Assembly (NCBI RefSeq): GCF_007120195.1
Contig: NZ_SKOG01000271.1
Coordinates: forward strand, 1 to 34,130
Direction of reading: 5' to 3'
From: Aquisalimonas sp.
Lineage (GTDB): Bacteria > Pseudomonadota > Gammaproteobacteria > Nitrococcales > Aquisalimonadaceae
DNA length: 34,130 nucleotides
The notes under the pieces were generated by a model. That model was not told the DNA's origin, did not search any database, and saw only the letters and a list, made by a program, of their open reading frames with translations. Of the stretch, positions 9,450-34,130 are shown piece by piece. Made by a program: the position numbers and the translations under genes. Within the stretch, counting starts at the first letter, position 1. Each line of letters begins with the position of its first letter.

Positions 9450-9480
9450 CAGCCGACGTCTTGGCGTTGGTGCCACCCCG

Positions 9481-9711: not shown

Positions 9712-9883
9712 GGCCGTCGTCCAACAGGCCCAGGGAGTTCACTGCCACCAGCGCCAGGAAAGCCACCAGGAACAGCGGCACGGGCGCGCTGCCGGTAGTC
9801 TCGCCGCGCCACAGCAAGGCGAGCAGCACGACGATAGGTGTGAGCACAGCCACGCGGAGCAGCTTGGTAATGGCGGCGGCGTC
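9712..9883 (-). pseudogene. Fragment of a YeiH/UPF0324-type putative sulfate exporter
   Basis: About 57 codons read AAAITKLLRVAVLTPIVVLL, ALLWRGETTGSAPVPLFLVA and FLALVAVNSLGLLDD. The arrangement of K-L-x-R-V, a hydrophobic helix, a short basic loop and P-x-F-x-x-x-F-x-A-L-x-x-x-N-S-L-G-L is typical of the third quarter of YeiH-family membrane proteins (about 330-350 residues when intact). Both the N-terminal helices and the final helices are absent. The frame extends upstream as a long open frame with no family resemblance, so this is an internal remnant. Confidence 0.6.
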
Positions 9884-10500
9884 GCCGGCTCGGAGACCAG
9901 ATACCCGGCCCGTAACGGCCGGGCGGCTCTGAATCGAAAAGCGCAACGGATACCGAATATTTAACGCCCTCTGGCGTACCGGCTGCTCGGGACACACATT
10001 GTCCACCAGCCGCGCGGCGCTCTTCGAAGTTCGCCTCACGGCACAGAAATAGACTGCAACCCATTGTACGTGAGACACAAATTTGGTCGCTGCAACGGAT
10101 GCCTGGTTTCGATCCGGTGGAAGTTCGTCCAGGGGACATGCCCGTGGCGGCTGCGACTGCTGAGCGTCAGGCGCCAGTACCGCTCGCGGCCCGATGCACC
10201 CGCTGCGGTGCCAGCGTGGCTCCCGCCTCTCTCCGACGGTGCGTATAGCTACACTTTTCCGGGCTGGCAAATGCCGAATGCACTGGTTACGAAAGGTTAC
10301 ACGCCCCGCCGACACACCTGCGCATTCAGTCCTGACAGCGCCACTTTTCGATGTATCCCGGCCAGCAGGCCAGCCGAAGCCATGCCCTGCGGGCGACAGC
10401 AGCGAATGGGGCCGCACCAGATCGAGCAGCGGGTCGAAAACTAGATCGTTCGGCCTAGCCCGACTTGCGTTATTCGCCGCTGAATTCTTCGAATTTCGCC
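9884..10500. other. Non-coding stretch with no recognisable gene
   Basis: Long open frames cross this stretch on the minus strand, but the translations are arginine-, proline- and cysteine-rich and match nothing I know. It contains one copy of an imperfect repeat (see 10259-10292). It lies between transporter debris and a transposase remnant, and is best read as decayed DNA. Confidence 0.45.
10259..10292 (+). repeat. Imperfect dispersed repeat, copy 1
   Basis: This stretch, beginning CCGGGCTGG and containing GCCGAAT and ACTGG, matches 11889-11922 at 28 of 34 positions without gaps and in the same orientation. The differences fall only at two of three codon phases, which suggests that both are remnants of a once-coding element. 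Confidence 0.55.
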
Positions 10501-10528
10501 TTGTTGCGGTGCGGTAATTTGCTATCAT
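10501..10528 (+). promoter_or_regulatory. Candidate sigma-70 promoter upstream of the IS1634 remnant
   Basis: TTGTTG at 10501-10506 and TATCAT at 10523-10528 are separated by 16 bases. They lie about 100 bases before the transposase start, in a locally AT-rich patch. This is plausible as the original transposase promoter. Confidence 0.35.
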
Positions 10529-10623
10529 CGCGCACTGTTGCAGCGCGTCGCACGGTCATTTTCCCTTGGAGTGCCGACTTTGCTCGTCGACCGGCTGCAG
10601 TGGCCCGGCGAACACTGTGCGCC

Positions 10624-10919
10624 ATGTTTCTGCGCGCCAAAAAAAGCGGTTCAAGGACGGCAAAGAGCACCGGTATTGGAGCATCGTGGAGAATTGCCGG
10701 GCCGCCGGCGACCGGGTGGTGCAGCACCGCGTGTGGTGGACGTGCACCTGCCGACAACCGGACGGCCGTAAGCTGGTGCTCTCCCGGTATACCCAGCCTG
10801 ATCGGGACCAACAGCTCCTGGTTCACCGGCTGCAACTCGAACTCCCAGGTCAATCCCCGCCCAGGATTTCTGGCCCTAACAGGCCGGTGGGCGAATCCAC
10901 TTCACCCGGCACGCTGTAG
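10624..10919 (+). pseudogene. Internally deleted, frameshifted IS1634-family transposase
   Basis: The N-terminus reads MFLRAKK, then after an A7 tract the frame shifts and continues KRFKDGKEHRYWSIVENCRA followed by AGDRVVQHRV. This is the conserved opening of IS1634 (IS4-like DDE) transposases. Directly after it, where several hundred residues should follow, comes PDGRKLVLSRYTQPDRDQQL and LVHRLQLELPGQ, which resembles the C-terminal end of the same family. The product would be about 95 codons in place of roughly 500-550. The catalytic DDE core is absent, so it cannot transpose by itself. The ATG at 10624 is the family start. Terminal inverted repeats were not resolved. Confidence 0.7.
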
Positions 10920-11166
10920 TGCCGACCTTTGAAGTTCGATACTGAGAAAAACAGATAGTTACGCTCGCCCCTACCCCCGAATAGCGGATCTTGGTCCGCG
11001 GGCAGGGCGGTTCGTGCCGCTGGCCGAACGCGCCTGAAGCTGTCCACAGGCCCGGAGAGGGGTGCCGAACCGCCCATTGAGTTCCGGCAATCCTCGCTGA
11101 CCGCCGAGCAGGTGCGAACCCACCTGGAAGCGGCAGCGCGGGTGGACCACTCCGCCGGCCGCCCGA

Positions 11167-11505
11167 TTAAGGCTCCTCCGCCTGCCGTGAGCTCCCCCCG
11201 TCCTTCAAGAACAGCCGGCGCAGGCCGAGAAAGATGCCGGCTATGACTACCCCTGAGACCACCGCGGCCAGCAGCGCCTGTACTGCCGGTGGCAGGTACG
11301 CGTACGCCGGGCCGAAGATCTCGCCGCCGGCAAGCGCGGCAAACACCAGCACGAACAGCACGCAGAGCAGCTGAACCCCGACGGCCAGGGCAAAGGTCAG
11401 CCCGACGCTCAGCCGAGGGTAGATCAGGAGTGCGACCCAGGCGACCGGGTTGAAGAACATCGTCATGCTCGCCCCCATCACCTCCCCTAGCCCGTTTGCC
11501 AACAT
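11167..11505 (-). CDS. Small membrane protein of unknown function (three or so TM helices)
   Basis: A 112-residue protein that I do not recognise. It opens MLANGLGEVMGASMTMFFNP, then has hydrophobic stretches VAWVALLIYPRL, VGLTFALAVGVQLLCVLFVL and VQALLAAVVSGVVIAGIFLG. It ends with a basic RRLFLKDGG tail, so it probably has three or four helices with the C-terminus in the cytoplasm. AGGAGA lies six bases before the ATG at 11505, a good site. Next upstream on the same strand is another small membrane protein (11566-11823), about 60 bases away, so the two may form an operon. Confidence 0.6.
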   Translation of the reverse strand: MLANGLGEVMGASMTMFFNPVAWVALLIYPRLSVGLTFALAVGVQLLCVLFVLVFAALAGGEIFGPAYAYLPPAVQALLAAVVSGVVIAGIFLGLRRLFLKDGGSSRQAEEP

Positions 11506-11565
11506 GTGCTTCTCCTTGTGGTTGGGCCGCCGAGGGTCGGCGGCTACGTATTCATCGTACGCCCC

Positions 11566-11823
11566 TTACGCATGGACGGAGGGGTCGTGCGCCGGATCCA
11601 AATGCGATTCGGCGATCTGACCCCTTGCCGGATTGATGATGGCGTACAACAGGAACAGGAGTACAACGAACAGGATGGCGATTCCGGCGCCAAGCCGGAA
11701 CCGGTAAGACAGCTCCAAGTGCTTCTGCACGACCGTGAAGTTCATGCCCAACACCCGCTGCAGACGCGCCTGCACCACGCCGCCGAAGGCCAGCGCGGAG
11801 GCCCTACTCCAGAAGCTCCTCAT
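11566..11823 (-). CDS. Small single-pass membrane protein of unknown function
   Basis: An 85-residue protein starting MRSFWSRASALAFGGVVQAR. The N-terminal part is amphipathic with LQRVLGMNFTVVQKHLELSY, followed by one clear membrane helix, LGAGIAILFVVLLFLLYAII, and a short polar tail ending DPSVHA. It matches no family I know. The ATG at 11823 has AGGTG six bases upstream; a GTG three codons earlier is possible. It lies just upstream of another small membrane protein on the same strand. Confidence 0.5.
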   Translation of the reverse strand: MRSFWSRASALAFGGVVQARLQRVLGMNFTVVQKHLELSYRFRLGAGIAILFVVLLFLLYAIINPARGQIAESHLDPAHDPSVHA

Positions 11824-12291
11824 GTTGAGCACCTGGCCTTAGGGCTGGCTGCATGTCAGGTCAGTATAGTAAACATAGAGACCCTAATCCGGGCTGGTCA
11901 ACGCCGAATTGACTGGGTACGAGGAGCCCCGGATGCGCTGCAGGGTTCAATGTCAATGTTGAAGACGCGGTTGAGGTGCCGAGCCCAGGTCATGGCCGCG
12001 GGGCGCTTGGCCGGGGCCCTGTCTTCGGACGCGCTTGACGTTGTACCCTTGCTGCCTGACCCCGTTCGCCCAGCGTCACCAGAGAACCGTCGGGAGACAC
12101 GACTTGGGCCCGTCGAGCAACAGCAGGTAAAACTAATGTTCCGATGCAGCGCACTGCCGAGGCGCTGAATCAGGGTGATTGCGCCAGTTTCGGCGTCTTG
12201 CGGGGGAAGCCCGCCTACTCTTAATCTGGTGGCGAGCGATGCAGCGGTCGGCGATGTCCATCACTCGCCCCGTGACGGCCGGGTGGGCGAT
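11824..12291. other. Spacer with a repeat copy, no recognisable gene
   Basis: No protein is recognisable in this stretch of about 470 bases downstream of the asparaginase gene. It holds the second copy of the dispersed repeat at 11889-11922 and otherwise only GC-rich chance frames. Confidence 0.45.
11889..11922 (+). repeat. Imperfect dispersed repeat, copy 2
   Basis: This matches 10259-10292 at 28 of 34 bases in the same orientation, about 1.6 kb apart. The flanking sequences are not similar, so the shared unit is short or the rest has decayed. Confidence 0.55.
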
Positions 12292-13365
12292 TTACTGCTC
12301 GAAATACTCCGCCTTCAGCTCGTCGGCATCCGTCGTATGCTGCATCGCCAACATCAACAGGATCCGCGCCTTATGCGGCAGCAGGTCGCCGGCGAAGACC
12401 GCCCCGGCCTCTTCAAGGGTCTTTCCCCCGCCGTCGAAGCCGTAGTGCGGACGGACATGCCCCTCCGGCGAACGGCTCGAGATCACAACCGGGATCCCCG
12501 CTTCGGTCGCGTCCTGGATCGCCTCGTAGAGCGACTCGTTAACGTTTCCCCAGCCGAGGGCCTGGACGACGACACCCTCGGCACCGTTGTCGATGGATGA
12601 CTGGAGCTTGTCGCCCTCCGCCCCGCCGTACATCATCACGATATCCACTCGGGGGAGCTCGTCATCGACCAGCGGGACGTGCTGACGGCGCTCCGGCGCG
12701 CGGTGGAAGACCAGCTCATCGGGCTCCACAGTGCCGAGGTAACCTTTCTCCCCGGAATGGAATGTGTCGGCGGCGTGCGTATGCCCCTTGCGCACGTCTC
12801 GCGCCGCATCGATCCGGTCGTTCATCACCAGCATCGCGCCCCGGCCCATTGCTTCCTCGCTGGCACAGACCCTTGCGGCACCGACCAGATTGCGGGGGCC
12901 GTCGAAGTCGTCCGCGGCGGCGTCACGCAACGCACCGATCAGCGCAATGGGCTTCTCGCTGTCGACCGTCAGGTCAAGGAAGTAGCCGGTCTCCTCGAGC
13001 GTATCGGTGCCGTGGGAGACAATGACCCCGGCCACCTCATCCCGCTCCAGCGCTGCCTCGACCTCCTGTTGCAGTTCGATCCAGCGGCGCGGGTTCATGT
13101 AGTCCGACGGCACGTTCGAGAGGTTGTACATCTCGATGTCCGCGTAGTCGCCGACTGCCGGTACTGCCTCGAGCAGATCCTCGCCAGCATCCGCCGGCAC
13201 GGGTGCGCCGGTCTCGGGATCCGGGCGCATGGCGATCGTCCCACCGGTCGCAATCATCATGCAGACCGGCACCTCGTCGGCGACGACCTGCCCCGGGAAT
13301 ACCGGCACAGCGATCATGGCGCCGAGCAAAGCACCCGGAAGCAGCGTGCGGGGTGTGGGGATCAT
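12292..13365 (-). CDS. ansB: Periplasmic type II L-asparaginase
   Basis: A 357-residue secreted asparaginase hydrolysing asparagine (often also glutamine) to aspartate and ammonia in the periplasm. A signal peptide spans about residues 1-30. The first catalytic motif ATGGTIA is near residues 39-45 with its threonine nucleophile. The second, VIVSHGTDTLEETGYFLDL, carries the Thr-Asp pair. The IALIGALRDAAADDFDGPRN stretch holds the region before the catalytic lysine site, and LGWGNVNESLYEAI near the end is family typical. GAGGAG lies seven bases before the ATG at 13365, preferred over an ATG seven codons earlier. It appears to be monocistronic, divergent from the quinone reductase gene. Confidence 0.94.
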   Translation of the reverse strand: MIPTPRTLLPGALLGAMIAVPVFPGQVVADEVPVCMMIATGGTIAMRPDPETGAPVPADAGEDLLEAVPAVGDYADIEMYNLSNVPSDYMNPRRWIELQQEVEAALERDEVAGVIVSHGTDTLEETGYFLDLTVDSEKPIALIGALRDAAADDFDGPRNLVGAARVCASEEAMGRGAMLVMNDRIDAARDVRKGHTHAADTFHSGEKGYLGTVEPDELVFHRAPERRQHVPLVDDELPRVDIVMMYGGAEGDKLQSSIDNGAEGVVVQALGWGNVNESLYEAIQDATEAGIPVVISSRSPEGHVRPHYGFDGGGKTLEEAGAVFAGDLLPHKARILLMLAMQHTTDADELKAEYFEQ

Positions 13366-13644
13366 GGGCGTCTCCTCATGAGGCACGTGGATAGTCGCGC
13401 GAATGGCTCACCGGTTCGCACCCCGGGACTCGACCAGGCTGTGAGGGGCATCAGCCGCGGCCGCTGAAGACGGTCACTCGACGTCCCGGCAAAGCATAGG
13501 AAGAATGGTGGCCGCTCGCAAGCCTGATCCAGGACATGATCCCTGGATTCGCACAAGAGCACGGCACACGCGTCTGGAGGCGCGAGAACCAGAACAACGC
13601 ACAGGCGCCCCAGGGCCAGATCCTTTCGGAGGAAATGCTCGACA

Positions 13645-14232
13645 ATGAACAAGCGCATACTGATCATCCAGGCCCATCCGGACCGCGAGCGGTCGCATTA
13701 CTGCCACGGCCTGGCGGCAGCCTACCGCAAGGGCGCCGAGGAGGCGGGTTTCACGGTAGAGGAAATTTTCCTTGCCGACCTGGAATTCCCCTTGCTCAGG
13801 AGCGAGGACGAGTGGCAGCAGCCCGGTGTTGCCGCGGATATCGAAAAGGCCCAGGAGCGGATCCATTGGGCCGATCACCTTCTCATCGTGTTTCCGCTGT
13901 GGATGGGCACCATGCCGGCCCTGCTCAAGGGGTTTCTGGAGCAGACGCTCAGGCCCGGCTTCGCCTTCAGCCAGGAAGCGCGCGGGGGACTCGGCGGTCG
14001 CCTGCTCAAGGGCAGATCGGCACGCGTGATCATCACCATGGGCATGCCGGCGTTGTTCTACCGCTGGTTTTTCGGTGCCCACGGGTTCCGCAATCTCAAG
14101 CGCAACATCCTAAAATTCTGCGGCATCAAGCCGGTGCGTCACTGCTTCGTCGGCCTGGCCGGCGCGAACCGACCGCAAGGACGCCAGAAGTGGCTCGAGC
14201 GCGTCGAGGCGCTGGGCCGCCGCGGAACCTGA
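13645..14232 (+). CDS. NAD(P)H-dependent oxidoreductase, flavodoxin-like fold (NQO1/MdaB/KefF family)
   Basis: A 195-residue flavoprotein. ILIIQAHPDRERSHYCHGLA is the first strand and FMN/FAD phosphate loop. WADHLLIVFPLWMGTMPALL and KGFLEQTLRPGFAF are the conserved flavin/quinone site. RSARVIITMGMPALFYRWFF and FCGIKPVRHCFVG complete the fold. Such enzymes reduce quinones by two electrons or act as accessory subunits of potassium efflux systems. GGAGG lies about twelve bases upstream of the ATG, a little far but the best available. No Kef channel is adjacent, so the quinone-reductase role is more likely. It is followed by degraded DNA. Confidence 0.9.
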   Translation: MNKRILIIQAHPDRERSHYCHGLAAAYRKGAEEAGFTVEEIFLADLEFPLLRSEDEWQQPGVAADIEKAQERIHWADHLLIVFPLWMGTMPALLKGFLEQTLRPGFAFSQEARGGLGGRLLKGRSARVIITMGMPALFYRWFFGAHGFRNLKRNILKFCGIKPVRHCFVGLAGANRPQGRQKWLERVEALGRRGT

Positions 14233-14260
14233 TGGCGCCTGACCGAGCGGCACACATGCC

Positions 14261-14681
14261 CTATTCCCACTTGACCCTGATACCTAAGAGCGAATCTCGC
14301 CACCGCTTGAGCAGATCCCCGCAGGCATCGATGCGCCTGTTCCTCAAGAACGGCCTGTTGCGGCATCCTTGTCCGCTGCGTTCCGGGTCCATGGTGGCGG
14401 TAGCGACTTTGGCCTCGCCGCCGGCCCCGTCGATAATCTCGCCCTTGGGGGCCGGTGAGGAGGCTGTGTCCCCAGAATTCGGCTTCAAGTTCGCCGGAGC
14501 AGCGATCGGGTTCGAATCCAACCCGGTTGCAGACAACCACCGGAAGGCCGTTGGCCACGACGTGTGCGCGCTGAATGGCGCGCCAGTCATCCCGTTGCCG
14601 CAACGGTGTTCGAAGATGGATCCGACGGCCACGCACCGGGTTTCGGCCGTAGTCTCTGAAAGCAATTTCGCAGACGGCCAT
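14261..14681 (-). pseudogene. C-terminal remnant of an AguB-like carbon-nitrogen hydrolase, with a frameshift
   Basis: On the minus strand one frame reads DDWRAIQRAHVVANGLPVVV, CNRVGFEPD and AEFWGHSLLTGPQG. Near 14441-14447 the reading continues in another frame as EIIDGAGGEAKVA and then NRPFLRNRRIDACGDLLKRW. Joined, this is the C-terminal 130 or so residues of the nitrilase-superfamily N-carbamoylputrescine amidase type (about 290-300 residues when whole), including the catalytic-cysteine-distal N-R-V-G-x-E and R-R-I-D-x-Y/C-G regions. The catalytic Glu-Lys-Cys part is missing. Upstream, MTPLRQQMISD (14731-14699) looks like the start of a tyrosine recombinase cut after eleven residues. Confidence 0.75.
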
Positions 14682-14822
14682 CGGTGGGTTCGGCCAGGAT
14701 CAGAAATCATCTGCTGGCGTAACGGGGTCATCTCACCTCTCCTCGTCACGTTGACTGGAGACGACAGTCTGCTTCGGCATCAGGCAGGTCGGAGCCCCGG
14801 CCTCAAGGCCCCGCAAAGCGGT

Positions 14823-14981
14823 TTAGCGTTCCGAATCTTCCTGTGCGAGGCACTCGGCTCCCCTGCCCCGCCTGGCCGGTGTCACCGGCGCGCGGTGTTC
14901 GCTGTTTGGCGCAAACACCCCGTGGAATCGGGCGAGGTTGACCCGCGGCCGCGGCATCAGGGCTGCCAGCACCTGATGCAG
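14823..14981 (-). pseudogene. C-terminal fragment of an IS91-family transposase
   Basis: LHQVLAALMPRPRVNLARFH followed by GVFAPNSEHRAPVTPARRGR is the well-conserved segment near the C-terminal end of IS91-type (Y2 rolling-circle) transposases. The catalytic tyrosines lie upstream and are not present. The frame then ends within a few codons. Compare the further IS91 pieces at 17165-17278 (opposite strand) and 33537-33674. Confidence 0.7.
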
Positions 14982-15250
14982 GTTGTCCTCACCGTCGGCA
15001 TTCGCGACAGCGGCGCCGGCGAGGGCCGGCTGATACGGGGCAAGTGGACGGCCCTGGACAGCGAGATGCCGGAGGCGGGCAAGCGCCATCCGCGCAGCGA
15101 CGACATCCGTTTCAATCTACGCTCCGGCAGTCTGGCAAGCCGCCACCTCGTCCTCAGCACCCGTAACGAGAGCGAGGTTGTGTGAAGCCTAATGGAAGCA
15201 ACCGCGAGATCGCCTGCAGAAATGGCCACTGCGACCAGGCGTCGGTTGCG
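14982..15250. other. Spacer with a protein-like segment of unknown origin
   Basis: On the plus strand a frame ending with TGA at about 15185 reads GRLIRGKWTALDSEMPEAGK and then RHPRSDDIRFNLRSGSLASR. Its balanced composition suggests a former coding sequence. It has no start of its own, and I do not recognise it. Confidence 0.3.
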
Positions 15251-16792
15251 TCAGGATGTCGCCGGCGCGCGGTCTTTCGGCGCCAGCGGACGCAGTCGGG
15301 CGAAGCGATAGACCTGCGCCGCAACGATCACTGCGCAGCCAAGCACCGCCATGACGGCGCCTTCGGGGCGATCGACCGCCGGCCAGCGCCACACCTGCCA
15401 CCCCGCCACGGCGACCCATGCCGTCCCCGCGAGCGTCCACAGCACCGTCTGCACCAGCAGGAATCGCGGCGAGAGCGCCCAGGCGTCGTACCAATCCCGA
15501 TACACCGTTGTTTGGCTGCGGCGTGCTGAAAGGTCAACGATCATTCCAAGCTGGTGCTGCTGCCGGGTGAGCCAGAGCACGACACCGGCGAGCGTCACGC
15601 CCAGAAGAAGCGGGAACCGCTTGGCAATGGCGTCGAGTCCGAAGGTCATTACGCCGACGGCCTCGCTGAACGATGCCATCCGATCCTTCTGCTGCTCGAA
15701 ATCCGCAGCGAGGCGCTCGGCCTCTTCTGTCAACGCGCTTATCAAGGCTTCCTGCCGAGAAATCAGCGCATCTGCCTGACGCGTGACGGCATGAACCGCG
15801 TTGACGATAAGATCGGCGGCCATCCTCTCGGAGAGAGCCGCCACACTTTCGTGGCCAAATTCGTCCTTTATCGCCTCCGAAGCCCACCAGAACGGATCGT
15901 CCGGCGGTTCCAGCGTCCAGTCGGAAATCCGGGCATCGATCCGGTCGAGGTCGCGGGCAAGCGCGGACAACTCCTCCTGCGCTTCTGGAAGCTGGCCTGT
16001 CAGATTGTCGATACTTGCGGTCAGCGCCGTGATACGGCGAGCGGCCTCCGGACGTACCTGGTGAGTCCAATAGGCGCCGAAATCGTCGAAGCGCGGCGCC
16101 ACGATATAGCGCTCGATCAAGGGGCGAAGCTCATCGCGCAGCGTTTCGATCGGCATATCGCGGCTGATATGGGATGGCAATTCTTCGGGCGGTACACCGT
16201 GGGTAGGCCAGCACTCCGAGGTGTCCGGCAGTACCTGCATCTGGAGTTGCTGCTGTTGCATCTGCATGGGCTGCTGCTGCCACTGCGGTTGTTGCTGCGG
16301 GGCTTGCTGGGTGCCCTGGAGCCTCTGTCGCTGTGGCGTCTCGAATTCCTGACCTGGCATCTGGACCTCGGGAGCCTGCGGAATGGCGTGCTGCACCCCG
16401 GGTTGCACCGGGACCGGATCGGCGGAGAGGATCCGGTCGGAGGTTGCGGAGAAATGGGCATCGAGCGTCGCATCGAGCTGACGGAAATCGCACTTCTTCC
16501 CCTCGACAAGCCATCGCATCTGCGCTGCCGGCTCGTCGGCAGCGATGCGCTTCAAATCCTCCAGGCCGGTGCGAACCTCCACGAGCGCGGACTTGGCGTC
16601 CTGCAGGCGTTCAAGCTCGGCCTCGGCGACCGCCTGGTTGCCCATGACGCGCAGGAACGGACCGATCGTCATGAGGTGGAGAAGGAAAAGGCCGAGGACA
16701 ATCACCACCGACCACCGCGCCGCGCTGTCGTACTGCTCGCGGGCCTTCGTGAAGAGGGATGACAGAACATCATCGTTGTCGGACACAGGCAT
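15251..16792 (-). CDS. Large membrane-anchored protein with a glutamine-rich linker and coiled coil, unknown function
   Basis: A 513-residue protein that I do not recognise. An N-terminal membrane helix lies at about residues 27-48 (WSVVIVLGLFLLHLMTIGPF), then a predicted coiled coil (ELERLQDAKSALVEVRTGLE). A long linker at about 125-190 is rich in Gln, Met and Pro (QQPMQMQQQQLQMQV). A helical domain with LSALARDLDRIDARISDWTL and an alanine-rich coiled coil (ALISRQEALISALTEEAERL) follows. Three more helices lie near residues 390-410, 445-470 and 480-500, with an RDWYDAWALSPRFLLVQ segment between. The layout suggests a large periplasmic domain held between TM1 and TM2. The start at 16792 is the first ATG in frame. 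It is flanked by IS91 pieces on both sides. Confidence 0.72.
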   Translation of the reverse strand: MPVSDNDDVLSSLFTKAREQYDSAARWSVVIVLGLFLLHLMTIGPFLRVMGNQAVAEAELERLQDAKSALVEVRTGLEDLKRIAADEPAAQMRWLVEGKKCDFRQLDATLDAHFSATSDRILSADPVPVQPGVQHAIPQAPEVQMPGQEFETPQRQRLQGTQQAPQQQPQWQQQPMQMQQQQLQMQVLPDTSECWPTHGVPPEELPSHISRDMPIETLRDELRPLIERYIVAPRFDDFGAYWTHQVRPEAARRITALTASIDNLTGQLPEAQEELSALARDLDRIDARISDWTLEPPDDPFWWASEAIKDEFGHESVAALSERMAADLIVNAVHAVTRQADALISRQEALISALTEEAERLAADFEQQKDRMASFSEAVGVMTFGLDAIAKRFPLLLGVTLAGVVLWLTRQQHQLGMIVDLSARRSQTTVYRDWYDAWALSPRFLLVQTVLWTLAGTAWVAVAGWQVWRWPAVDRPEGAVMAVLGCAVIVAAQVYRFARLRPLAPKDRAPATS

Positions 16793-25870: not shown

Positions 25871-25984
25871 TGCTTTCAATCCTCACTCGCCTTCGTCCCG
25901 GGATCGCGTGGGAGCCAATGATGTCGCCTGTGGTGCCAATTCCGCAACGCCGAGGGAGGCCGGTGCCGAGCTGATCAACACCAC

Positions 25985-26250
25985 GGAATTGATGCGGCGG
26001 CTGCTTGCGAGCTGCTCCACAATGCATCGCTGGTGCACGATGACCTCAGCGATGGTGATACGGTGCGGCGCGGTCAACCCACGATCTGGCACCTCTATGG
26101 GAGCGACATCACGCTGTGTACGGGTGACTTATCGCAAAGTACTAGCGCCTTCTTCACGGCGGCCAATATCGACGACCCCGCCTCCAGCCGCACGCTGGTG
26201 CTTCACCTCGCGAAGCAGGCCGGCCGCGTGATTGGCGGGGAGGGTGTGGC
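25985..26250 (+). pseudogene. Fragment of a polyprenyl (geranylgeranyl) diphosphate synthase
   Basis: The frame reads AAAACELLHNASLVHDDLSD then GDTVRRGQPTIWHLYGSDIT and LCTGDL. The L-x-H-N-x-S-L-x-H-D-D-L-x-D-x-D-x-x-R-R-G stretch is the first aspartate-rich motif of trans-isoprenyl diphosphate synthases with its basic partner. HLAKQAGRVIGGEGVARE shortly after is part of the next helices, with a deletion between. The N-terminus and the second aspartate-rich motif (DDxxD) are missing. It is a remnant with no start codon. Confidence 0.75.
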
Positions 26251-26286
26251 GCGTGAATACGGCCACGGTGGCGCACTGGTCGACCC

Positions 26287-26475
26287 AGGCGACGAGCCGC
26301 ACACGTCCCCTACAACCCGGGCACAAGCGGGGAAACGGTGGTCGTCGCCGTTCTGCTCGGTGCGCCGGCCGAGCGCCCGCTTACGATCCCCGTCGACGAG
26401 GCCGAGGGCAACGCCCTCGACGGGCAGTGCGGCATCGACCGCGATGCCAGCGCGCCTTCGAGCGCCGGGGGCTGA
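26287..26475 (+). pseudogene. Cupin-like C-terminal fragment, copy A
   Basis: The frame reads AAHVPYNPGTSGETVVVAVL then LGAPAERPLTIPVDEAEGNA and LDGQCGIDRD before a TGA at 26473. The N-P-G-x-x-x-E-T-V-V-V-A-x-L-L-G-A-P stretch suggests the last strands of a cupin barrel. It is clearly homologous to 33857-34027 on the opposite strand. The N-terminal half is absent and the polyprenyl synthase fragment abuts it. Confidence 0.5.
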
Positions 26476-26715
26476 TGCCGGCTCGAGGGACCGGGCGTTC
26501 GCGAAGCCCCGCGCCCGGCCCCTTGCCGGCGTGCGCAGCTCCGCGCGGCTCGCGAGGAATGTCGAGGCTCAGCGGCTTCCGTCAGGCCATCTCCCGCCTT
26601 TCGACTTCGTTGAAAGCCCACAACGTTTGGATTAGCCTTTTATAAAAACCGGGGTCAGACCAACGGTTCCAGTCGTGCAGATCCCACCCTTGCAAGCGGC
26701 TTACGGAGGAACCCC
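26476..26715. other. Spacer ahead of the DUF4242-BTAD island
   Basis: No protein is visible. A GGGGTCAGACC motif occurs at about 26651-26661, preceded by a locally AT-rich TTTTATAAAAA patch that may serve as a promoter region for the DUF4242 gene. GGGGTCAGACC strings are frequent beside REP-associated transposase loci, but no such gene is present. Confidence 0.35.
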
Positions 26716-26994
26716 ATGACCTACCTGGTAATGGAGCGCACGTTCGGCGAGCCGATGCTGGACGCCGACCTCGAACTCATGGGTCAGCGCCTTGGCCCCT
26801 GCCTGCAGGACCACCGGGTTGAGTGGCTCCGCAGCTACCTCTCCCATGACCGGCGGAGAATGATTTGCACCTTTGAGGCGCCGGACGCGGAGGCCGTCCG
26901 GCTGGCGTATCGCACCGCGGGCTATCCCTTTGAACGCGTCTGGCCGGCAATGGTGCTGCCGACGGATGCCGGGCTCGCGCCACCAACGCCGTAG
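26716..26994 (+). CDS. DUF4242 (SCO4226-like, nickel-binding type) protein
   Basis: A 92-residue ferredoxin-like protein. It opens MTYLVMERTFGEPMLDADLE and has VEWLRSYLSHDRRRMICTFE then APDAEAVRLAYRTAGYPFER and VWPAMVL. The W-x-x-S-Y-L-x-x-D-x-x-x-x-x-C-x-F-E-A-P-D-x-E-A-x-R motif is the DUF4242 core. The Streptomyces member SCO4226 is reported to bind nickel; whether this one does is unknown. CGGAGG lies six bases before the ATG. It precedes the large BTAD regulator gene by 15 bases, so both are co-transcribed, and it is a candidate for the regulator's metabolite or metal sensor. Confidence 0.9.
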   Translation: MTYLVMERTFGEPMLDADLELMGQRLGPCLQDHRVEWLRSYLSHDRRRMICTFEAPDAEAVRLAYRTAGYPFERVWPAMVLPTDAGLAPPTP

Positions 26995-27009
26995 GCGAAA
27001 CGAGGTCAC

Positions 27010-30000
27010 GTGACAACGCCGGACGTGTGCCGGCTCGAAATCCGTCTGCTCGGCAGGTCATCGGTCCTGCGTGACGGCGCGGAGATGGACCTGCCCCGGT
27101 CCCGGAAGGCCCGCGCACTACTCGCCTACCTGGTTGCATCGGGTCAAGCGCAGTCCCGAGAGCACCTCTGCGACCTGTTGTGGGACGGCCCCGCCAACCC
27201 GCGCGCGGAACTGCGGTGGTGCCTGGCCAAGATCCGCCCCCTGCTCGATGATGAGACCACCACACGGTTGGTCACCGACGGGGACTACCTGCGTTTTCAT
27301 GCCGAGGACGTCGCCCTGGACGTGGCGCGCGTGCGCGCATTGATTCCCTCCACGGCGGACGATGTCGCCACCGATTGCCTGTGTCAGACGGCGGAACTCC
27401 TGCGAGGCCCCTTCCTGGAGGGCGTGGACCTCCCCGACTGTTACCGCTTCGACGCCTGGTGCGTCGCGGAGCGCCAGGCGTTGCATCAGCTCCACGACGA
27501 CGTCCTGCGCACACTGGTGCAGCGGCTGAAGGACCAGCCCGATGCCGCCTTGCCGTATGCCCGCAACCGGCTGGTGCTTGATCCGCTCTGCGAAGATGCG
27601 CACGCCGACCTGATCGCGCTTTTACACGCGATGGGGCGGACCGCGGAGGCACGGGAGCGGTACGAGCAGTGCCGGCGCATCCTGCAGCACGAACTCGGGC
27701 TAACGCCCTCTGATCGACTGGAGCAGTTGCACGCGCAGCTGACCCCGATCGCACCCGCCTTCGCTACGCCGTCCCCCTCCCGCGCGCCATCCTCGGGCGC
27801 ACCACCCCTGGTGGGTCGCCAGGCAGAACTGGCCTGCATCCGGGAGGCGCTGGAGGACGGAACCCCGCTGCTCATCGGCGGTGACCCGGGTATCGGCAAG
27901 TCCCGGCTGTTGCAGGAGGCCGCCGCGCGGCTTCAGGGCGCAGGCGCCGAGGTGCTCGGCGGGCGGGCATTCGAGATGGACGCGACGCGCCCCTATGCAC
28001 CCTGGATCGACGCCCTGCGCGCGATCCCCGCAGCGTCCACCACGATCCCCTCGGCTCTGCGGCAGGAACTCGCCGCCCTGCTGCCGGAACTGGGACCCGC
28101 GGCCGACGATTCCGGCGATCGCAACCGCCTGTTCAACGCGGTTGCCCAACTGCTGACCGAACGGTCCCACGCCGGTATGACCGTGGTCGTGATCCTGGAC
28201 GATCTCCAGTGGTTCGACGAGGCGTCGGCCGCGCTGCTGCACTATGTGGCCCGCGCCACCGCCGACGCCCCGGTGGCGTTCGTCCTGGCAGCGCGGGCCG
28301 GCGAACTGGAGAGCAACCCGGCGGCGCAGCGTGCGGTTCACGCGCTGCGACGGGATCGCGCTTTACGGATGCTGGCGGTCGAACCGCTGTCCGCGGCGGA
28401 TACGGTCGCCGTCGCCCAAAGCGTCGCACCCCAGGTGGACGGCGACCGCGTCTTTCGCGAGTCGGAGGGCAACCCCCTGTTTGCCCTCGAGATCGCGCGC
28501 TCGCACCGGAGTGGTCAGCCGTTGCTGGGGGATACGCTGGGCGGCCTGATTGCCGGTCGCCTGGCCGGCGTTGGCGAAGAGGCGGCGGCGTTGCTGCCCT
28601 GGGCTGCCGCCCTCGGTCGCCGCTTCAATCCGGACCGACTGGCGGCGGTGATGAACCTGCCGTCCACGACCCTGCTTCACGGTCTGGAGGACCTGGAACG
28701 GCACGCCATCCTGCGCGCGGCGGAGGACGGTCGGTACGAGTTCGCCCACGACCTGATCCGCCGGGCCGCCTATCAGTCACTGTCGGAGCCGCGCCGGCGC
28801 CTTATCCACCTGCAGATCGCCCGCAGCCTGGCTCGCGGCGTCCGGCAATCCCGGTTGTGGTGCCGCAAGAAGACGATCCATCTGCCGGTCGCCGAGGGCC
28901 AGGCGCGCAGCAGCGACATGGAGGAGTCGTTGGCCGGCGAGGTGGCCTACCACGCCGACCTAGGCGGCGATCATGCGCTCGCCGCGCGCGCCTGCGCGGT
29001 AGCCGGCCGCCACGCGTTGCGCATCCATGCCTACCAGGAGGCGGCGGCATTGGCTCAGCGGGGCCAGACCCATCTGGAGCCACTTCCGGACGAAACCCGA
29101 CTGCCGTGCTCCCTGGAATTGCTGGAGCTCTACATCCACCCGGGCATGGAGCCGCATCAGCCACCCGATCTGGAGCAGCGGCTGCGCGCACTGGTGCGCG
29201 AAGCCCGGGCGTTCGGAACGAGCGGGGAGGTGCATGACGGGCTGTACCTGATCGGCGTGCTGCTCTATCTGCGCGGCCGATACAGCGATGCCCTGGACTT
29301 CACGGTCCGCGCAGAACGCGCCGGACGGACCGCCGACCCGACCACCATGGTGCAGGCCGTGGCCTACACCGCCCGGTGCCTCGGCATGCTCGCCCGTGAC
29401 ATGGAGCGTGCAGAGCAACTGGCCCGCGAGGCGCAGGATCTCGCCGAGCAGTTCGACGTGCGCGAGCCCGGCTGCGAACTCCCCCTGGCCCTCGCGCTGG
29501 TCGCACACCATCGCGGCGAGCTGCAGCAGGCGCGCGCGCACATCGAACACGCCCTGGCGCTGGCCCGGCGCGACCGCATGCCCTGGTGGGAGTACTACTG
29601 CCTGTCCCGCCTACCCATGATCGAGCTCGAACGCCAGGCACCCGAGGACGCACTGGAATGGTGTCATGCCCTGCAATCCGTAGCGGTCAAGCTCGGAGAC
29701 GGCGCCGAGGTACCATTCGCGCTGGCGCTGGAAGCGCTGGCCCGGCTCCAGCATGGAGACGGTTCGGCCGCGGCGGCCTTGGATGACGCCCTGGAACAGC
29801 TGCGCGCCGCCGATAGCCAGTGGATGATCGCCTACGTGCAGAGTCTCGCCGCCTGGAGCGACTGGCAGGCAGGCCGGACCGATGCCGCCCGGGAGAGGGC
29901 CGAGGACGCGTTGCACAGCGCCGAGGTGATCGATCAGGCGAACGAGGTGACCGTGGCACGCGCCCTGCTGGTCCGGGTAGCCATGACCGCAGGCGACCGC

Positions 30001-30120
30001 GCATCGGCGCTGACCCACCTCGAGCGCATCCCGAGCGAAGCCCACCACTGCCTCTCCGCCCGCGCCCGACGCGCCGCCGAAGAGGCTGCGGCCGCGGCCC
30101 ACCCCGCCATCCCCCGCTGA
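27010..30120 (+). CDS. Large BTAD/AAA/TPR transcriptional regulator (SARP/AfsR-like)
   Basis: A 1036-residue signalling protein. Residues 8-100 form an OmpR-type winged helix (LEIRLLGRSSVLRDGAEMDL, RKARALLAYLVASGQAQSRE, HLCDLLWDG). Residues 105-250 are the bacterial transcriptional activation domain (CLCQTAELLRGPFLEGVDLP, RLVLDPLCEDAHADLIALLH, CRRILQHELGLTPS). A P-loop ATPase follows, with Walker A GGDPGIGKSR near 290 and Walker B VVVILDDLQWFDEAS near 392. From about 640 on there are TPR-like helices (AAALAQRGQTHLEPLPDETR, ARAHIEHALALARRD). The layout is that of a STAND-type activator. GAGG before the GTG at 27010 supports the start. It shares a unit with DUF4242. Targets are unknown; the downstream genes are candidates. 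Confidence 0.92.
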   Translation: MTTPDVCRLEIRLLGRSSVLRDGAEMDLPRSRKARALLAYLVASGQAQSREHLCDLLWDGPANPRAELRWCLAKIRPLLDDETTTRLVTDGDYLRFHAEDVALDVARVRALIPSTADDVATDCLCQTAELLRGPFLEGVDLPDCYRFDAWCVAERQALHQLHDDVLRTLVQRLKDQPDAALPYARNRLVLDPLCEDAHADLIALLHAMGRTAEARERYEQCRRILQHELGLTPSDRLEQLHAQLTPIAPAFATPSPSRAPSSGAPPLVGRQAELACIREALEDGTPLLIGGDPGIGKSRLLQEAAARLQGAGAEVLGGRAFEMDATRPYAPWIDALRAIPAASTTIPSALRQELAALLPELGPAADDSGDRNRLFNAVAQLLTERSHAGMTVVVILDDLQWFDEASAALLHYVARATADAPVAFVLAARAGELESNPAAQRAVHALRRDRALRMLAVEPLSAADTVAVAQSVAPQVDGDRVFRESEGNPLFALEIARSHRSGQPLLGDTLGGLIAGRLAGVGEEAAALLPWAAALGRRFNPDRLAAVMNLPSTTLLHGLEDLERHAILRAAEDGRYEFAHDLIRRAAYQSLSEPRRRLIHLQIARSLARGVRQSRLWCRKKTIHLPVAEGQARSSDMEESLAGEVAYHADLGGDHALAARACAVAGRHALRIHAYQEAAALAQRGQTHLEPLPDETRLPCSLELLELYIHPGMEPHQPPDLEQRLRALVREARAFGTSGEVHDGLYLIGVLLYLRGRYSDALDFTVRAERAGRTADPTTMVQAVAYTARCLGMLARDMERAEQLAREAQDLAEQFDVREPGCELPLALALVAHHRGELQQARAHIEHALALARRDRMPWWEYYCLSRLPMIELERQAPEDALEWCHALQSVAVKLGDGAEVPFALALEALARLQHGDGSAAAALDDALEQLRAADSQWMIAYVQSLAAWSDWQAGRTDAARERAEDALHSAEVIDQANEVTVARALLVRVAMTAGDRASALTHLERIPSEAHHCLSARARRAAEEAAAAAHPAIPR

Positions 30121-30273
30121 ACGGAAGCCGATCGCCTCCAACACCGATTCCAACGCCCGTCCCAACACCAATATGGTTTCCTGGCGCTGTCCAGTTCGTA
30201 ACCGACCGGAGAGCTGGACCGACCGACACACGCCGACATCGTTGGAAAGCGACACGTTTCGTGGGAGGCAACA
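30121..30273. promoter_or_regulatory. Intergenic gap before the AhpD-like gene
   Basis: This 153-base gap has no gene. It contains a repetitive AACACC/AACGCC/AACACC run at about 30138-30170 and is the natural site for a promoter of the secreted AhpD-like gene, possibly the target of the BTAD regulator. No consensus promoter was convincing. Confidence 0.3.
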
Positions 30274-30684
30274 ATGAAATCCGTCGTCATCACAACAGCA
30301 GCACTGGCTCTGGCAGCAACCATCGGGTTCGCCGCACCGGCGCACAGCAACGAGGCACCCGACTTCGTCCAGAACACGTTCCCCGACCAGGGGGTCGCGG
30401 CGGCCTGGGAGAGCATCCAGTCCGTGTTCACGGACCCGGACGCGGCACTCGACGGCAAGACCAAGGAGCTCATCGCCGTCGCCGTTTCGGCGCAGATTCC
30501 CTGCGATTACTGCATCTACTCGCACACAGTGGGAGCGGAGGCGCACGGCGCCACCGACGCCGAGATCCGGGAGGCCCTGGCGACCGGCGCGCTGATCCGG
30601 AAGTGGAGCACGATGCTCAACGGGGCCCAGTACGACATGGACGAGTTCCGCCGCGAAATCGACGCCATGTTCGAGACAGACTGA
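30274..30684 (+). CDS. Secreted carboxymuconolactone decarboxylase / AhpD-like protein
   Basis: A 136-residue protein with a Sec signal peptide (MKSVVITTAALALAATIGFA, with cleavage likely after AHS). The mature part is an AhpD-like helical bundle: DGKTKELIAVAVSAQIPCDY then CIYSHTVGAEAHGATDAEIR and EALATGALIRKW. The C-D-Y-C pair plus the following S-H is the AhpD peroxidatic CxxCxxxH arrangement. AhpD-like enzymes are usually cytoplasmic, so a signal peptide is uncommon and places this thiol chemistry in the periplasm. GGGAGG lies about six bases before the ATG. It sits downstream of the BTAD regulator with a 153-base gap, and upstream of a strong hairpin, so it may be its own transcription unit. 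Confidence 0.9.
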   Translation: MKSVVITTAALALAATIGFAAPAHSNEAPDFVQNTFPDQGVAAAWESIQSVFTDPDAALDGKTKELIAVAVSAQIPCDYCIYSHTVGAEAHGATDAEIREALATGALIRKWSTMLNGAQYDMDEFRREIDAMFETD

Positions 30685-30720
30685 CACCACAATACGGCAG
30701 CCACGGCGAGCAGCCAGCAA

Positions 30721-30757
30721 GGGCCCGGGCGGTCACCGACGGGGGCCGCCCGGGCCC
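30721..30757. terminator. Perfect 12-bp hairpin between the AhpD-like and phosphotransferase genes
   Basis: GGGCCCGGGCGG (30721-30732) is exactly complementary to CCGCCCGGGCCC (30746-30757) around a 13-base loop. It follows the AhpD-like stop by 37 bases and ends about 40 bases before the next start. There is no T-tract, so it may act as a GC-only terminator or an mRNA stabiliser. Confidence 0.6.
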
Positions 30758-30796
30758 GCCGGCACCACGCCGTGTCCCGCTGCCGGGAGGAACACA

Positions 30797-31900
30797 ATGG
30801 CTACGCCCACCCAGCCGACGCATACCGCGGCGTCCGACACCCGCTACCTGGCCGAGGCCCTGGCGCGCGCGGGCCGGCCGCCCTCGTTCGCCGAGCCGGC
30901 GCAAGAGCAGTTCCTGGACGGCGGCCGCACCGGGACCAGGGTGACCCGTCTCACCTGCGCCAACGGCTGCAGCTTCGTCCTCAAGGTCATCCCCCGCGAA
31001 CGCGCCTTTCGCGAGGCGCTCTGCCACGACGGCGAGGCCGCGGCCTGGCTGGCAGGGGCGACCCGCGTGCTCCCGCCGCCCTTGGTGAACCCCACCCTGG
31101 ATGCAACCCTTCACCCGGAGCGCGACGAATGGTGGCTGCTCATGGACGACGTCTCCCCGGACATCGTCACCCGCAGCGGCTGGACGGAAGCGCACACCCT
31201 GCGGCTGTTCGAGGCCATGGCGAGTCTCCACGCCACGCACTGGGAGGCCCCCGACACACCCCGCGAGGGGATCGGGACCCTGTCCGCCACCACCGCCTTG
31301 CTGGTGGAGATCGCGCTGTACGCCAGCACCGGGCGCGCATCGGTGGAATGGGCGGCGCGCAGTGCCGAGGCGTTCCAGGTACCCCGAATGCTGCTTCCGG
31401 GTTTTCTGGAAGCCGCCGGCACCGGCAACGCTGACTTCTACCTGACGCTGCTCCGGCGTTGGCGCGACATCGTCGCCGCACTCGACGACCAACCCTCTAC
31501 GCTCCTTCACGGTGATCTGCGCCGTGCCAACGTCGCCTTTGTGGATGGGCAGGTGGTGCTTTTCGACTGGGAACTGGCCGCCCGGGGATCAGCAGCGGCC
31601 GACCTGGCGTGGCACTGGTTCCTCCACTACTGGGCCTACCCACCCAACGACGGCCGTCTGCCGACGGACCGGCTCTGGCTGCGCGATGCCTACCTGGATC
31701 GGCTGGAAGAGCAACGCGGATCGCGGGTGGACCGGGACGCGTTCCGGGTGTCCTGGGAACTGGCCTGGTTGCGGGTCTTCTGCCAGTTGGGTTTCGTCCT
31801 GGCGGACGGCCTCGCCGAGGACCATTCCAACGTACGCCGCCAGCGTATCCAGGACGCCTTCCAGGAGGCCCGGAGAATCGTCGATGAGCACCTCCCGTAG
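30797..31900 (+). CDS. APH/choline-kinase-like phosphotransferase
   Basis: A 367-residue kinase-fold protein. LTCANGCSFVLKVIPRERAF contains the lysine of the ATP site. DEWWLLMDDVSPDI lies at the hinge. The catalytic loop is STLLHGDLRRANVAFVDG near residues 234-251 with the aspartate and asparagine of the Brenner motif. VVLFDWELAARGSAAADLAW carries the metal-binding aspartate. The fold is shared by aminoglycoside phosphotransferases and ecdysteroid-kinase-like proteins. The substrate cannot be assigned, and resistance is not implied. GGAGG lies six bases before the ATG. The last 17 bases overlap the methyltransferase gene, so the two are translationally coupled. Confidence 0.9.
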   Translation: MATPTQPTHTAASDTRYLAEALARAGRPPSFAEPAQEQFLDGGRTGTRVTRLTCANGCSFVLKVIPRERAFREALCHDGEAAAWLAGATRVLPPPLVNPTLDATLHPERDEWWLLMDDVSPDIVTRSGWTEAHTLRLFEAMASLHATHWEAPDTPREGIGTLSATTALLVEIALYASTGRASVEWAARSAEAFQVPRMLLPGFLEAAGTGNADFYLTLLRRWRDIVAALDDQPSTLLHGDLRRANVAFVDGQVVLFDWELAARGSAAADLAWHWFLHYWAYPPNDGRLPTDRLWLRDAYLDRLEEQRGSRVDRDAFRVSWELAWLRVFCQLGFVLADGLAEDHSNVRRQRIQDAFQEARRIVDEHLP

Positions 31901-32729
31901 CGACCGCTGGACCGCCCTGAACACGTCCCGGGCCGTACGCGACGCCGCCGACCGCCTGCGCCAGTTGAGCGCTACCGCGTCCGAGCGCGACGCCCGCAGG
32001 CATTGGCTGGTGTTGCTCGACCTTCGCGACGGGGAGCGCGCCGTGGATATCGGCGCCGGCATCGGCGACATGACGGTCGACATCGCGCGTCATGTCGGCC
32101 CGGACGGCGCCGTGCACGCCCTGGACCTGTCGCCGGGCCTGCTCCACCACACCCGCCAGCGGGCCGCGGAAGCGGGTGTGCTCGACCGTGTCGCCACCGA
32201 CACCGGCGACGCGAACGCTCTGCCCTACGGCGACGACGCATTTGACGTCGCCCTCTGCCGCTGGGTCCTTCTCCATCTCCCGGCTCCGCAACGCGCCATC
32301 GCGGAGATGCGCCGCGTGGTCCGCCCCGGGGGGCGGGTCCTCTGCGTGGAAGCGGACTGGGAGACCCTGATCGTGCACCCGGGCGATCCGGACGTCACAC
32401 GCCGGATCGCGCACGCCAACGTGGAGCGGCAGGTGGACGGTCGCATCGGCCGGAAGCTCGCGCCGCTGCTCCAATCTGCCGGCTTCTCGAACGTTTCCGT
32501 CACCCCCCTCGTCGACCTCGACCGCAGCGGCGACTGGCTGCCCTTTCTGCACACGCGCCTGGACGTGGCCGCGCAGGCCGGCGTCCCGTTGAGCACTCTG
32601 CACCAATGGTGGAAGGCAATCGAGTCCGCCGCGAGCCACGGCGAGTACCTGTTCAGCTTCACCCAGTACGGAGTGCTCGGTATCGTTCCGCCGGTCAGCC
32701 AGCCGGCGCGGGCGGAATCCCCGACATAA
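31884..32729 (+). CDS. SAM-dependent class I methyltransferase (UbiE/arsM-like type)
   Basis: A 281-residue methyltransferase. Motif I is ERAVDIGAGIGDMTVDIARH near residues 51-70. Motif II reads AVHALDLSPGLLHHTRQRAA. The acidic motif is DANALPYGDDAFDVALCRWV then LLHLPAPQRAIAEMRRVVRP and GGRVLCVEADWE. The C-terminal cap has KLAPLLQSAGFSNVSVTPLV. The sequence fits the Methyltransf_11/25 group; the substrate is unknown. CGGAG lies nine bases before the ATG at 31884, inside the end of the phosphotransferase gene. The 17-base overlap implies the two act on the same molecule or pathway. Confidence 0.92.
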   Translation: MSTSRSDRWTALNTSRAVRDAADRLRQLSATASERDARRHWLVLLDLRDGERAVDIGAGIGDMTVDIARHVGPDGAVHALDLSPGLLHHTRQRAAEAGVLDRVATDTGDANALPYGDDAFDVALCRWVLLHLPAPQRAIAEMRRVVRPGGRVLCVEADWETLIVHPGDPDVTRRIAHANVERQVDGRIGRKLAPLLQSAGFSNVSVTPLVDLDRSGDWLPFLHTRLDVAAQAGVPLSTLHQWWKAIESAASHGEYLFSFTQYGVLGIVPPVSQPARAESPT

Positions 32730-33116: not shown

Positions 33117-33410
33117 TTACGACCACATTTCCGATAAAACTGGATGAACATCCGGCTGTTGCGGAGGTTCGACCCCGGCCCATAGCGCCCGGGCATAGGC
33201 CGATTTCAGATCTCTTCCCCGCGACTTGTGTTCAGCCCTCAGGATGCCGGGCGAAAAGCAGTCGATGTATCCATGCTCCTCTTCGATTTTCCGGACATGC
33301 GCCCCGAATGCCGCGACCCGGCGGCGCGTGATGCCGAACACCTGGAAGAACTCGCTCCAGAAGGTCTGGGTCTCGGCACGGTCGCGGATTTCGTTCCAGG
33401 ACAGAGCCAT
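33117..33410 (-). pseudogene. N-terminal stub of an MmeI-like DNA methyltransferase
   Basis: From the ATG at 33410 the protein reads MALSWNEIRDRAETQTFWSE then FFQVFGITRRRVAAFGAHVR and YIDCFSPGILRAEHKSRGRD. This is the N-terminal domain of MmeI-type class I DNA methyltransferases/restriction enzymes, including the E-H-K-S-R-G-R-D nuclease-like motif. About 15-20 residues appear deleted between RDRA and ETQTFW compared with the usual pattern. After LKSAYARAL the frame diverges and stops at 33117. The methyltransferase body (about 800 further residues) is absent, so this cannot act. Confidence 0.72.
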
Positions 33411-33536
33411 GGGCGCTCGTGGTTTCCTTGTAAGCGCCACATGCGCGGTCGCAGACACAAACCTATGGGAGTCATCTGTGCAGGGGAAATCACGGAAGGC
33501 GCCAAGTCATGGGAAAGGGTCAATTCTCGACAAGGC

Positions 33537-33856: not shown

Positions 33857-34027
33857 TCAGTGACCGGAATGCCCCGCTGCGATCTGCTCCCGATCGATGC
33901 CGCACTGCTCGTCCAGCGCGACGCTCTCCTCCTCGTCCACCGGGATGGTGAGCGCGCCCTCCTCGGGTGCCCCAAGGAGCGTGGCGATGACCACGGTCTC
34001 CTGCTCAGCGCTCGGGTTGTAGGCGGT
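33857..34027 (-). pseudogene. Cupin-like C-terminal fragment, copy B
   Basis: On the minus strand the frame reads YNPSAEQETVVIATLLGAPE then EGALTIPVDEEESVALDEQC and GIDREQIAAGHSGH before the stop at 33857. It aligns with 26287-26475 along almost its whole length (YNP, ETVV, LLGAP, LTIPVDE, ALD-QCGIDR identical). The frame remains open upstream, but an HxlR-like frame on the other strand takes over near 34028. No start codon with a binding site is visible, so this is a C-terminal remnant. Confidence 0.5.
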
Positions 34028-34130
34028 GTGCCGCTCATGTCGCGCGCGTTGCTCTCCCGGCGGCTGCGGGAGCTCATGGCAGCTGGCGTCGTGGTCCGCG
34101 ACGAGCATGGCCGCTACCGGCTCTCTGAGG
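34028..34130 (+). CDS. HxlR-like winged-helix regulator piece, runs off the right edge
   Basis: The plus-strand frame reads VPLMSRALLSRRLRELMAAG then VVVRDEHGRYRLSE and continues beyond the window. This is the recognition helix and wing of HxlR-type regulators (V-P-L-M-S-x-x-L-L-S-x-R-L-R-E-L-x-x-A-G-V-V, then R-Y-R-L-S/T-E). No start with a ribosome-binding site precedes it inside the window. The sequence upstream on this strand belongs to the opposite-strand cupin fragment, so the gene is probably truncated at its 5' end. Its 3' end is unknown. Confidence 0.55.
   Translation, partial: MPLMSRALLSRRLRELMAAGVVVRDEHGRYRLSE

Follow-up and report, generated by a model that had tools for sequence, protein, structure and literature searches.

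SARP-LAL regulation is known from the antibiotic gene clusters of actinomycetes. To our knowledge, the signals to which STAND-type SARP regulators and AAA_16-TPR nucleotide cyclases respond are largely unknown. The site of the archetype SARP-LAL, PimR, consists of three heptameric direct repeats with 4-base spacers, with a 10-bp variant also described (PMC5930380), and the period of known SARP sites is 11 bp (PMC5930380, PMC10936776). A distance of 8 bp separates AfsR-type sites from the -10, which reads CACTGT in the AfsR-dependent promoter of afsS (PMC10936776). As for DUF4242 proteins, the passages cited here describe SCO4226 of Streptomyces as a nickel-binding protein with ligands Asp43, Ser46 and His76 (PMC4186839), and its gene as adjoining phoU-phoR-phoP, not a STAND gene (PMC4186839, PMC4991794); what these passages report on DUF4242/SCO4226 is nickel binding and the phoU-phoR-phoP location, a STAND partner being unmentioned in them.

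Layout and genomic setting of the cassette

The window analyzed here, a stretch of 34,130 nt that constitutes one entire contig of a 4.05 Mb genome in 292 contigs, contains a five-gene cassette, all on the plus strand, and its host is a salt-lake bacterium. An earlier note had delimited the five genes from the sequence alone; its ORFs proved exact, including a 15-base gap and a 17-base overlap, and the families it had named were recovered by profiles. The first gene (26716..26994) encodes a DUF4242/SCO4226-like protein of 92 aa, assigned by the PF14026 profile and cysteine conservation. Its end lies 15 bases before the GTG start of the gene for REG (27010..30120), a 1036-aa STAND regulator of the large SARP/SARP-LAL type with orthologues that are 76-78% identical. 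Downstream of REG there is a predicted REG operator of three direct repeats with a 12-bp period (30137..30169), conserved in L044, L045 and partly in L047, followed by a weak candidate -10, CGCTGT (30185..30190), proposed from a conserved alignment block. The three remaining genes code for a protein of the AhpD/CMD family with a Sec-type signal peptide, MKSVVITTAALALAATIGFAAPAHS (30274..30684), a phosphotransferase of the APH/choline-kinase fold (30797..31900), and a class I SAM-dependent methyltransferase of 281 aa (31884..32729), whose ATG precedes the kinase stop, so that both genes overlap by 17 bases. A scan for consensus sigma-70 promoters gave no match. Because the conserved, repeat-bearing region separates REG and DUF4242 from the three enzyme genes, the cassette probably comprises two transcription units.

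The order DUF4242-REG-AhpD-kinase-methyltransferase, at 68-88% protein identity, is found in another Aquisalimonas locus (L031/L044) and in Billgrantia (L047), and REG through kinase in another member of the Ectothiorhodospiraceae (L032/L045); the full order is thereby present in three genomes and the partial one in a fourth. Since gene order is kept at this level of identity, the cassette is real and more than a chance arrangement. In Billgrantia campisalis A4 (L047, 10001-11480), one out-of-frame deletion broke both the kinase and the methyltransferase genes, with DUF4242, REG and AhpD remaining.

The genes upstream of the cassette are collinear, with 86-87% DNA identity, with G003, a complete genome from the same genus, and with G002, up to position 25858 of the window, and the sequence from ca. 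25880 to the contig end was not found in these collinear stretches; G002 does carry the cassette, on another contig. The kinase gene is rare, occurring in two of 369 gammaproteobacterial genomes, and the nine relatives found are scattered over Gammaproteobacteria, delta/myxobacterial bins and one bin of Alphaproteobacteria, with a single set of sediment bins (CSSed) supplying five of them. The kinase of the window is more similar to the alphaproteobacterial copy (64% identity) than to one from the window's own family (59%). The synteny break, the rarity of the kinase, its scattered taxa and the closeness of the alphaproteobacterial copy lead us to infer that the cassette was horizontally transferred. 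The kinase had no match in plasmids and none in viral contigs.

The surroundings of the cassette contain other features. A frameshifted remnant, polyprenyl synthetase-like by eye, occupies positions 25900-26640, just past 25858, at the left edge of the island; two copies of an inverted repeat (26289-26444 and 33888-34043), 74% identical, stand on either side of it; and a fragment on the minus strand (33117-33458) matches the N-terminal domain of the restriction enzyme MmeI.

Payload genes and a paralogous module

The AhpD-like protein scores 55 bits with the CMD profile and 59 bits with the AhpD core domain, and it contains the active-site motif E-x11-CxxC-xxxH (E65, C77, C80 and H84), ELIAVAVSAQIPCDYCIYSH at aa 65, whose residues are invariant in six relatives. 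The kinase (APH profile, 45.8 bits) has the HxD-x4-N motif (HGDLRRAN, aa 238) and the metal-binding Asp (DWE, aa 257), with the catalytic positions invariant in nine sequences, and a structure search with its model (pLDDT 75) retrieved the APH/choline-kinase fold, choline kinases being among the matches. The methyltransferase (Methyltransf_11, 74.7 bits; model pLDDT 80) has the fold of natural-product or phosphoethanolamine-type methyltransferases. Both fold searches returned a general fold only (TM about 0.5) and no specific substrate. Assignment of the kinase to the class V lanthipeptide synthetases was rejected, with 17.9 bits to the NCBIfam LxmK model against a cut-off of 315 and no LxmX/LxmY partner among the cassette genes.

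The overlap of the kinase and methyltransferase genes is kept in nearly all relatives; this pair forms the core of the enzyme trio, which supports the reading of both as one functional pair. AhpD precedes the pair in the window and in L044, L046, L047 and L048, and precedes the kinase in L045, where no methyltransferase follows; no recognizable AhpD gene was seen in the kinase-methyltransferase loci L049, L050 and L051. The gap between the AhpD and kinase genes holds a strong, G+C-rich hairpin (30695..30785) that is predicted in the window, L044 and L045 (RNA fold z -6.4, -4.5 and -3.6, respectively), with sequences that differ. Because it lacks a U-tract, the hairpin may set the expression of AhpD apart from that of the kinase and the methyltransferase. 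L044 (7854-9196) has a duplicate of the predicted operator and of the start of the AhpD signal peptide ahead of another small secreted ORF (8061-8459), whose product would thus come under the same type of promoter.

In L046 and L048, the gene upstream of the enzymes codes not for REG but for a divergent regulator of the AraC type, which in L046 includes a DJ-1/PfpI domain. The functional unit is therefore that of the enzymes, with exchangeable regulators. The L046 locus (8372-16597) comes from a Rhodobiaceae bin; close to its enzyme trio are genes for a BCCT transporter, an SDR and what appears to be an acyl-CoA dehydrogenase, and the DJ-1/PfpI-AraC regulator is upstream.

REG also occurs in a paralogous module, in the order REG, a double DUF4242, OsmC and a Pyr_redox_3 flavoprotein, which is present in the window's own genome (contig C200; L027, 305-2800), L033, L035 and L186; in L034 the contig stops before the payload genes. 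A triple repeat, TNCCACG, again with a 12-bp period, is situated after the DUF4242 gene and before OsmC, and only 0 to 3 of 200 shuffles were as good at word length 7. The first payload gene is AhpD in one module and OsmC in the other, from two distinct thiol-peroxidase-type families, which makes it plausible, if speculative, that the signal or the product is reactive (redox or electrophile). The earlier note had also placed the enzymes under such a regulator, and had seen DUF4242, regulator and enzymes as one island. The gene order kept in relatives agrees with the former, although the association is not obligatory, as the two loci with an AraC-type regulator show; the island does recur elsewhere, but REG and DUF4242 are also combined with the OsmC and flavoprotein payload.

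REG, its DUF4242 neighbor and the triple repeat

REG (BTAD, 59.6 bits; AAA_16, 90 bits) consists of a SARP domain (aa ~9-252), an AAA_16 ATPase domain (aa 266-425) with intact Walker A (GDPGIGKS, aa 291) and Walker B (VVILDDLQW, aa 393) motifs, and a TPR-like C-terminal half. Residues 10-252 match the AfsR SARP structure (PDB 8hvr) over the full SARP length (phmmer, E 7.6e-8), which upholds the initial classification as a SARP/AfsR-like STAND regulator. The protein features of SARP-LALs, an N-terminal SARP (winged helix plus BTAD) and a large ATPase with Walker motifs, are thus found in REG, and no C-terminal LuxR helix-turn-helix was detected in it. Among 72,556 plasmids searched with REG there were only two strong matches, in Mesorhizobium (L121) and Nostoc (L122).

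A DUF4242 gene adjoins REG in all eight of its close relatives, understood as those aligning over most of their length and including the window itself. It is upstream of REG in the window, L044 and L047; downstream, as a double domain and with overlapping genes, in L033, L034 and L035; and in the plasmids of Mesorhizobium and Nostoc it follows REG and has one domain. A second REG-DUF4242 pair in the window's genome is apparently split over contigs C18 and C200. In the stretches examined around farther BTAD-AAA regulators, no DUF4242 was present. REG and DUF4242 are therefore a conserved pair well beyond this genome, in agreement with the coupling that the earlier note had read from the window alone, and the neighborhood analysis of DUF4242 with BTAD-AAA genes in Proteobacteria that it had suggested yielded co-occurrence in other genomes.

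We surveyed 76 sampled DUF4242 places in other Pseudomonadota. In eight of them DUF4242 and a class III nucleotide cyclase domain form one protein, in six a STAND or SARP-type protein is encoded within 200 bp on the same strand, and 56 have no such gene nearby. The fusions, found in L111, L168, L169, L170, L172, L174, L180 and L182, are short adenylate/guanylate cyclase-DUF4242 proteins. In Rhizobium and Ruegeria plasmids a DUF4242 gene is ca. 30-40 bp from the gene for an annotated cyclase-AAA_16-TPR protein, and in Caballeronia it adjoins an AAA_16 protein. A DUF4242 tree sorted the domains by signalling partner: the partner label changes 6 times on it, compared with 27 to 30 times when labels are shuffled, although the tree comes from 79 alignment columns and many of its forks are weakly supported. 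The window protein scores 54.5 bits with PF14026 (SCO4226-like; cut-off 28.5). Cys51 is invariant in the 95 domains compared, whereas Cys29 is confined to the REG-linked ones (15 of 15, against 0 of 80 elsewhere). The nickel-ligand positions Asp43 and Ser46 of SCO4226 would correspond to Arg39 and Leu42 in the window protein when placed from a conserved Trp alone, in an alignment that is not settled. Adjacency and clade-specific residues together suggest that DUF4242 may be the input partner of REG.

In the window, the repeats conform to (T/C)CCAAC(A/G)C, with CCAAC at 30138, 30150 and 30162, an exact 12-bp period, in the gap that separates the REG and AhpD genes. The block is kept in five copies of the REG-AhpD gap (window, two in L044, L045 and L047), with the first repeat of L047 off-spaced by one base. 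None of 400 dinucleotide shuffles of the window gap contained an equally good triple, at word length 7 or 8, and in its specific form the array is unique in the genome. Conservation in the same gap extends to GTCCAG...CTGGAC arms and to a ribosome-binding region. A triple repeat with 12-bp period stands ahead of the first payload gene in the AhpD-module copies and in five OsmC-type loci. No window-like array was found with the Mesorhizobium and Nostoc REG-DUF4242 pairs.

A unified motif, YHCMACR-N5 three times, was derived from the module sites themselves. It has seven perfect matches in six module-bearing genomes (ca. 22 Mb), all seven of them inside modules; the module site in G479 has one mismatch. 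The REG-less genome G003 contains three perfect matches elsewhere, and with one mismatch allowed the motif was no commoner than a reversed control. The L034 region contains a further triple repeat, with one mismatch (G013:C163:22613-22643); it precedes the REG gene, lies on the opposite strand, and is possibly autoregulatory or serves the divergent gene.

The 11-bp (7 + 4) period of SARP-LAL operators was rejected for these arrays, since counting gives three repeats with a period of 12 bp both in the window and in relatives. The candidate -10 (CGCTGT; CACTGT in L044) lies 16-17 bp past the third repeat, and a CACTGT-like -10 at 17 bp makes the geometry different from that of AfsR. The array is likely a SARP operator, PimR-like but spaced at 12 bp. 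By analogy, REG would work like a SARP-LAL or large SARP regulator; we file it as a variant because the classical operator spacing was looked for and not found.

Proposed mechanism and comparison with known systems

Our preferred reading, which we hold as somewhat probable, is that of a laterally acquired, cluster-specific one-component switch for small-molecule-modifying enzymes. REG, as a STAND ATPase, would be inactive until a signal arrives, as AfsR suggests, and the most likely receiver or relay of the signal is the DUF4242 protein, which is predicted to be ferredoxin-like and has two conserved cysteines. If REG acts as AfsR and PimR do, its active form would multimerize on the three 12-bp-spaced repeats ahead of AhpD and bring RNA polymerase to a weak promoter. 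AhpD, a putative periplasmic thiol protein, would then be switched on together with the kinase and the methyltransferase; the latter two probably share one small-molecule substrate in detoxification or tailoring.

A different role for the two regulatory elements has to be weighed. DUF4242 could be a metal- or redox-buffering protein merely co-transcribed with REG, whose TPR region would then sense the ligand. Nickel binding by SCO4226, placed in the cited passages beside phoU-phoR-phoP without a STAND gene (PMC4186839, PMC4991794), and the absence of a STAND neighbor from most sampled DUF4242 genes fit this idea, which we nevertheless find rather unlikely given the adjacency to REG in eight of eight cases across phyla, the cyclase fusions in eight genes and the partner-specific clades. 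The triple repeat, in turn, could be some other regulatory or RNA element and not the REG operator. Its period and its distance to the candidate -10 are indeed unlike canonical SARP promoters, and the conserved arms and ribosome-binding region share the same gap; but this possibility is rather doubtful, given that two paralogous modules agree in period and position although their payloads differ, that no perfect match in the module-bearing genomes falls outside a module, that the period is close to one helical turn, and that the repeats number three, as in PimR.

The enzymes also admit other interpretations. That they are part of a larger pathway, e.g., quaternary-amine or phosphocholine-like metabolism, with the other genes elsewhere, would agree with the BCCT betaine/choline/carnitine transporter near the Rhodobiaceae trio, which itself adjoins the DJ-1/PfpI-AraC regulator, and with the choline kinases and phosphoethanolamine methyltransferases among the structural matches. 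These matches are at fold level only, though (TM about 0.5), and other loci have unrelated neighbors and no conserved fourth gene; we regard this alternative as unlikely. An arsenic methylation or arsenosugar cluster, with an ArsM-like methyltransferase and an AhpD-like protein, is extremely improbable: the scores of 71 bits of the methyltransferase to the arsenite methyltransferase/AhpD model and of 36.9 bits of AhpD to an arsenosugar-associated peroxidase model fall far short of the curated thresholds of 510 and 120 bits, the methyltransferase scores higher with UbiE-type models, and its alignment (A5) has no invariant cysteine, so that membership was rejected.

Returning to the switch formed by REG and DUF4242, its broader version is one that we advance tentatively: these DUF4242 clades could be dedicated signal receivers of STAND ATPases with two outputs, SARP activators and class III cyclases, the REG-linked clade switching by Cys29/Cys51 and its regulators reading a 12-bp-spaced triple repeat. 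If true, Pseudomonadota and Cyanobacteria would share a signalling system of two proteins that has yet to be described. Because DUF4242 is a neighbor of both STAND types and is fused to cyclase domains in other genomes, this small conserved partner is a concrete candidate for signal input that can be studied through a 92-aa protein, and the predicted operator gives a direct target for a binding assay. Since perfect motif matches are nearly confined to modules, the regulon in this genome seems to comprise just one or two operons. The STAND-DUF4242 pairing and the unusual operator geometry are more interesting than the enzymes. SARP-LAL regulation would thereby extend to halo-alkaliphilic proteobacteria and to the small mobile enzyme cassettes that they carry.

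Among described systems, REG resembles the SARP-LALs PimR, PteR, SanG and PolR of Streptomyces in its N-terminal SARP, its large ATPase half, the lack of a detectable LuxR helix-turn-helix and the three direct repeats, here a predicted operator, before a cluster gene. It differs from them in a period of 12 bp instead of 11 (or 10), in being gammaproteobacterial, in its constant DUF4242 neighbor and in its small enzyme payloads, as opposed to antibiotic clusters. With AfsR (PDB 8hvr) it shares the SARP domain match and the ATPase plus TPR architecture, but sequence similarity is low, the ATPase of REG is of the AAA_16 type, and the candidate -10 lies 16-17 bp from the repeats instead of 8 bp. 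The cassette kinase has the APH fold and catalytic residues of LxmK (class V lanthipeptide) and other APH-fold kinases, and, unlike LxmK, no lyase or precursor peptide partner. The DUF4242 protein belongs to the same Pfam family as SCO4226 (PF14026) and has the Cys51 that is invariant in the domains compared here, but falls in a separate, REG-linked clade with the additional invariant Cys29. The adenylate/guanylate cyclase-AAA_16-TPR proteins of the Rhizobium and Ruegeria plasmids have the same AAA_16 STAND core and adjoining DUF4242 gene, with a nucleotide cyclase as output domain where REG has a SARP. What is new here is thus a variant of SARP-LAL regulation, with a predicted operator spacing of 12 bp and a DUF4242 partner.
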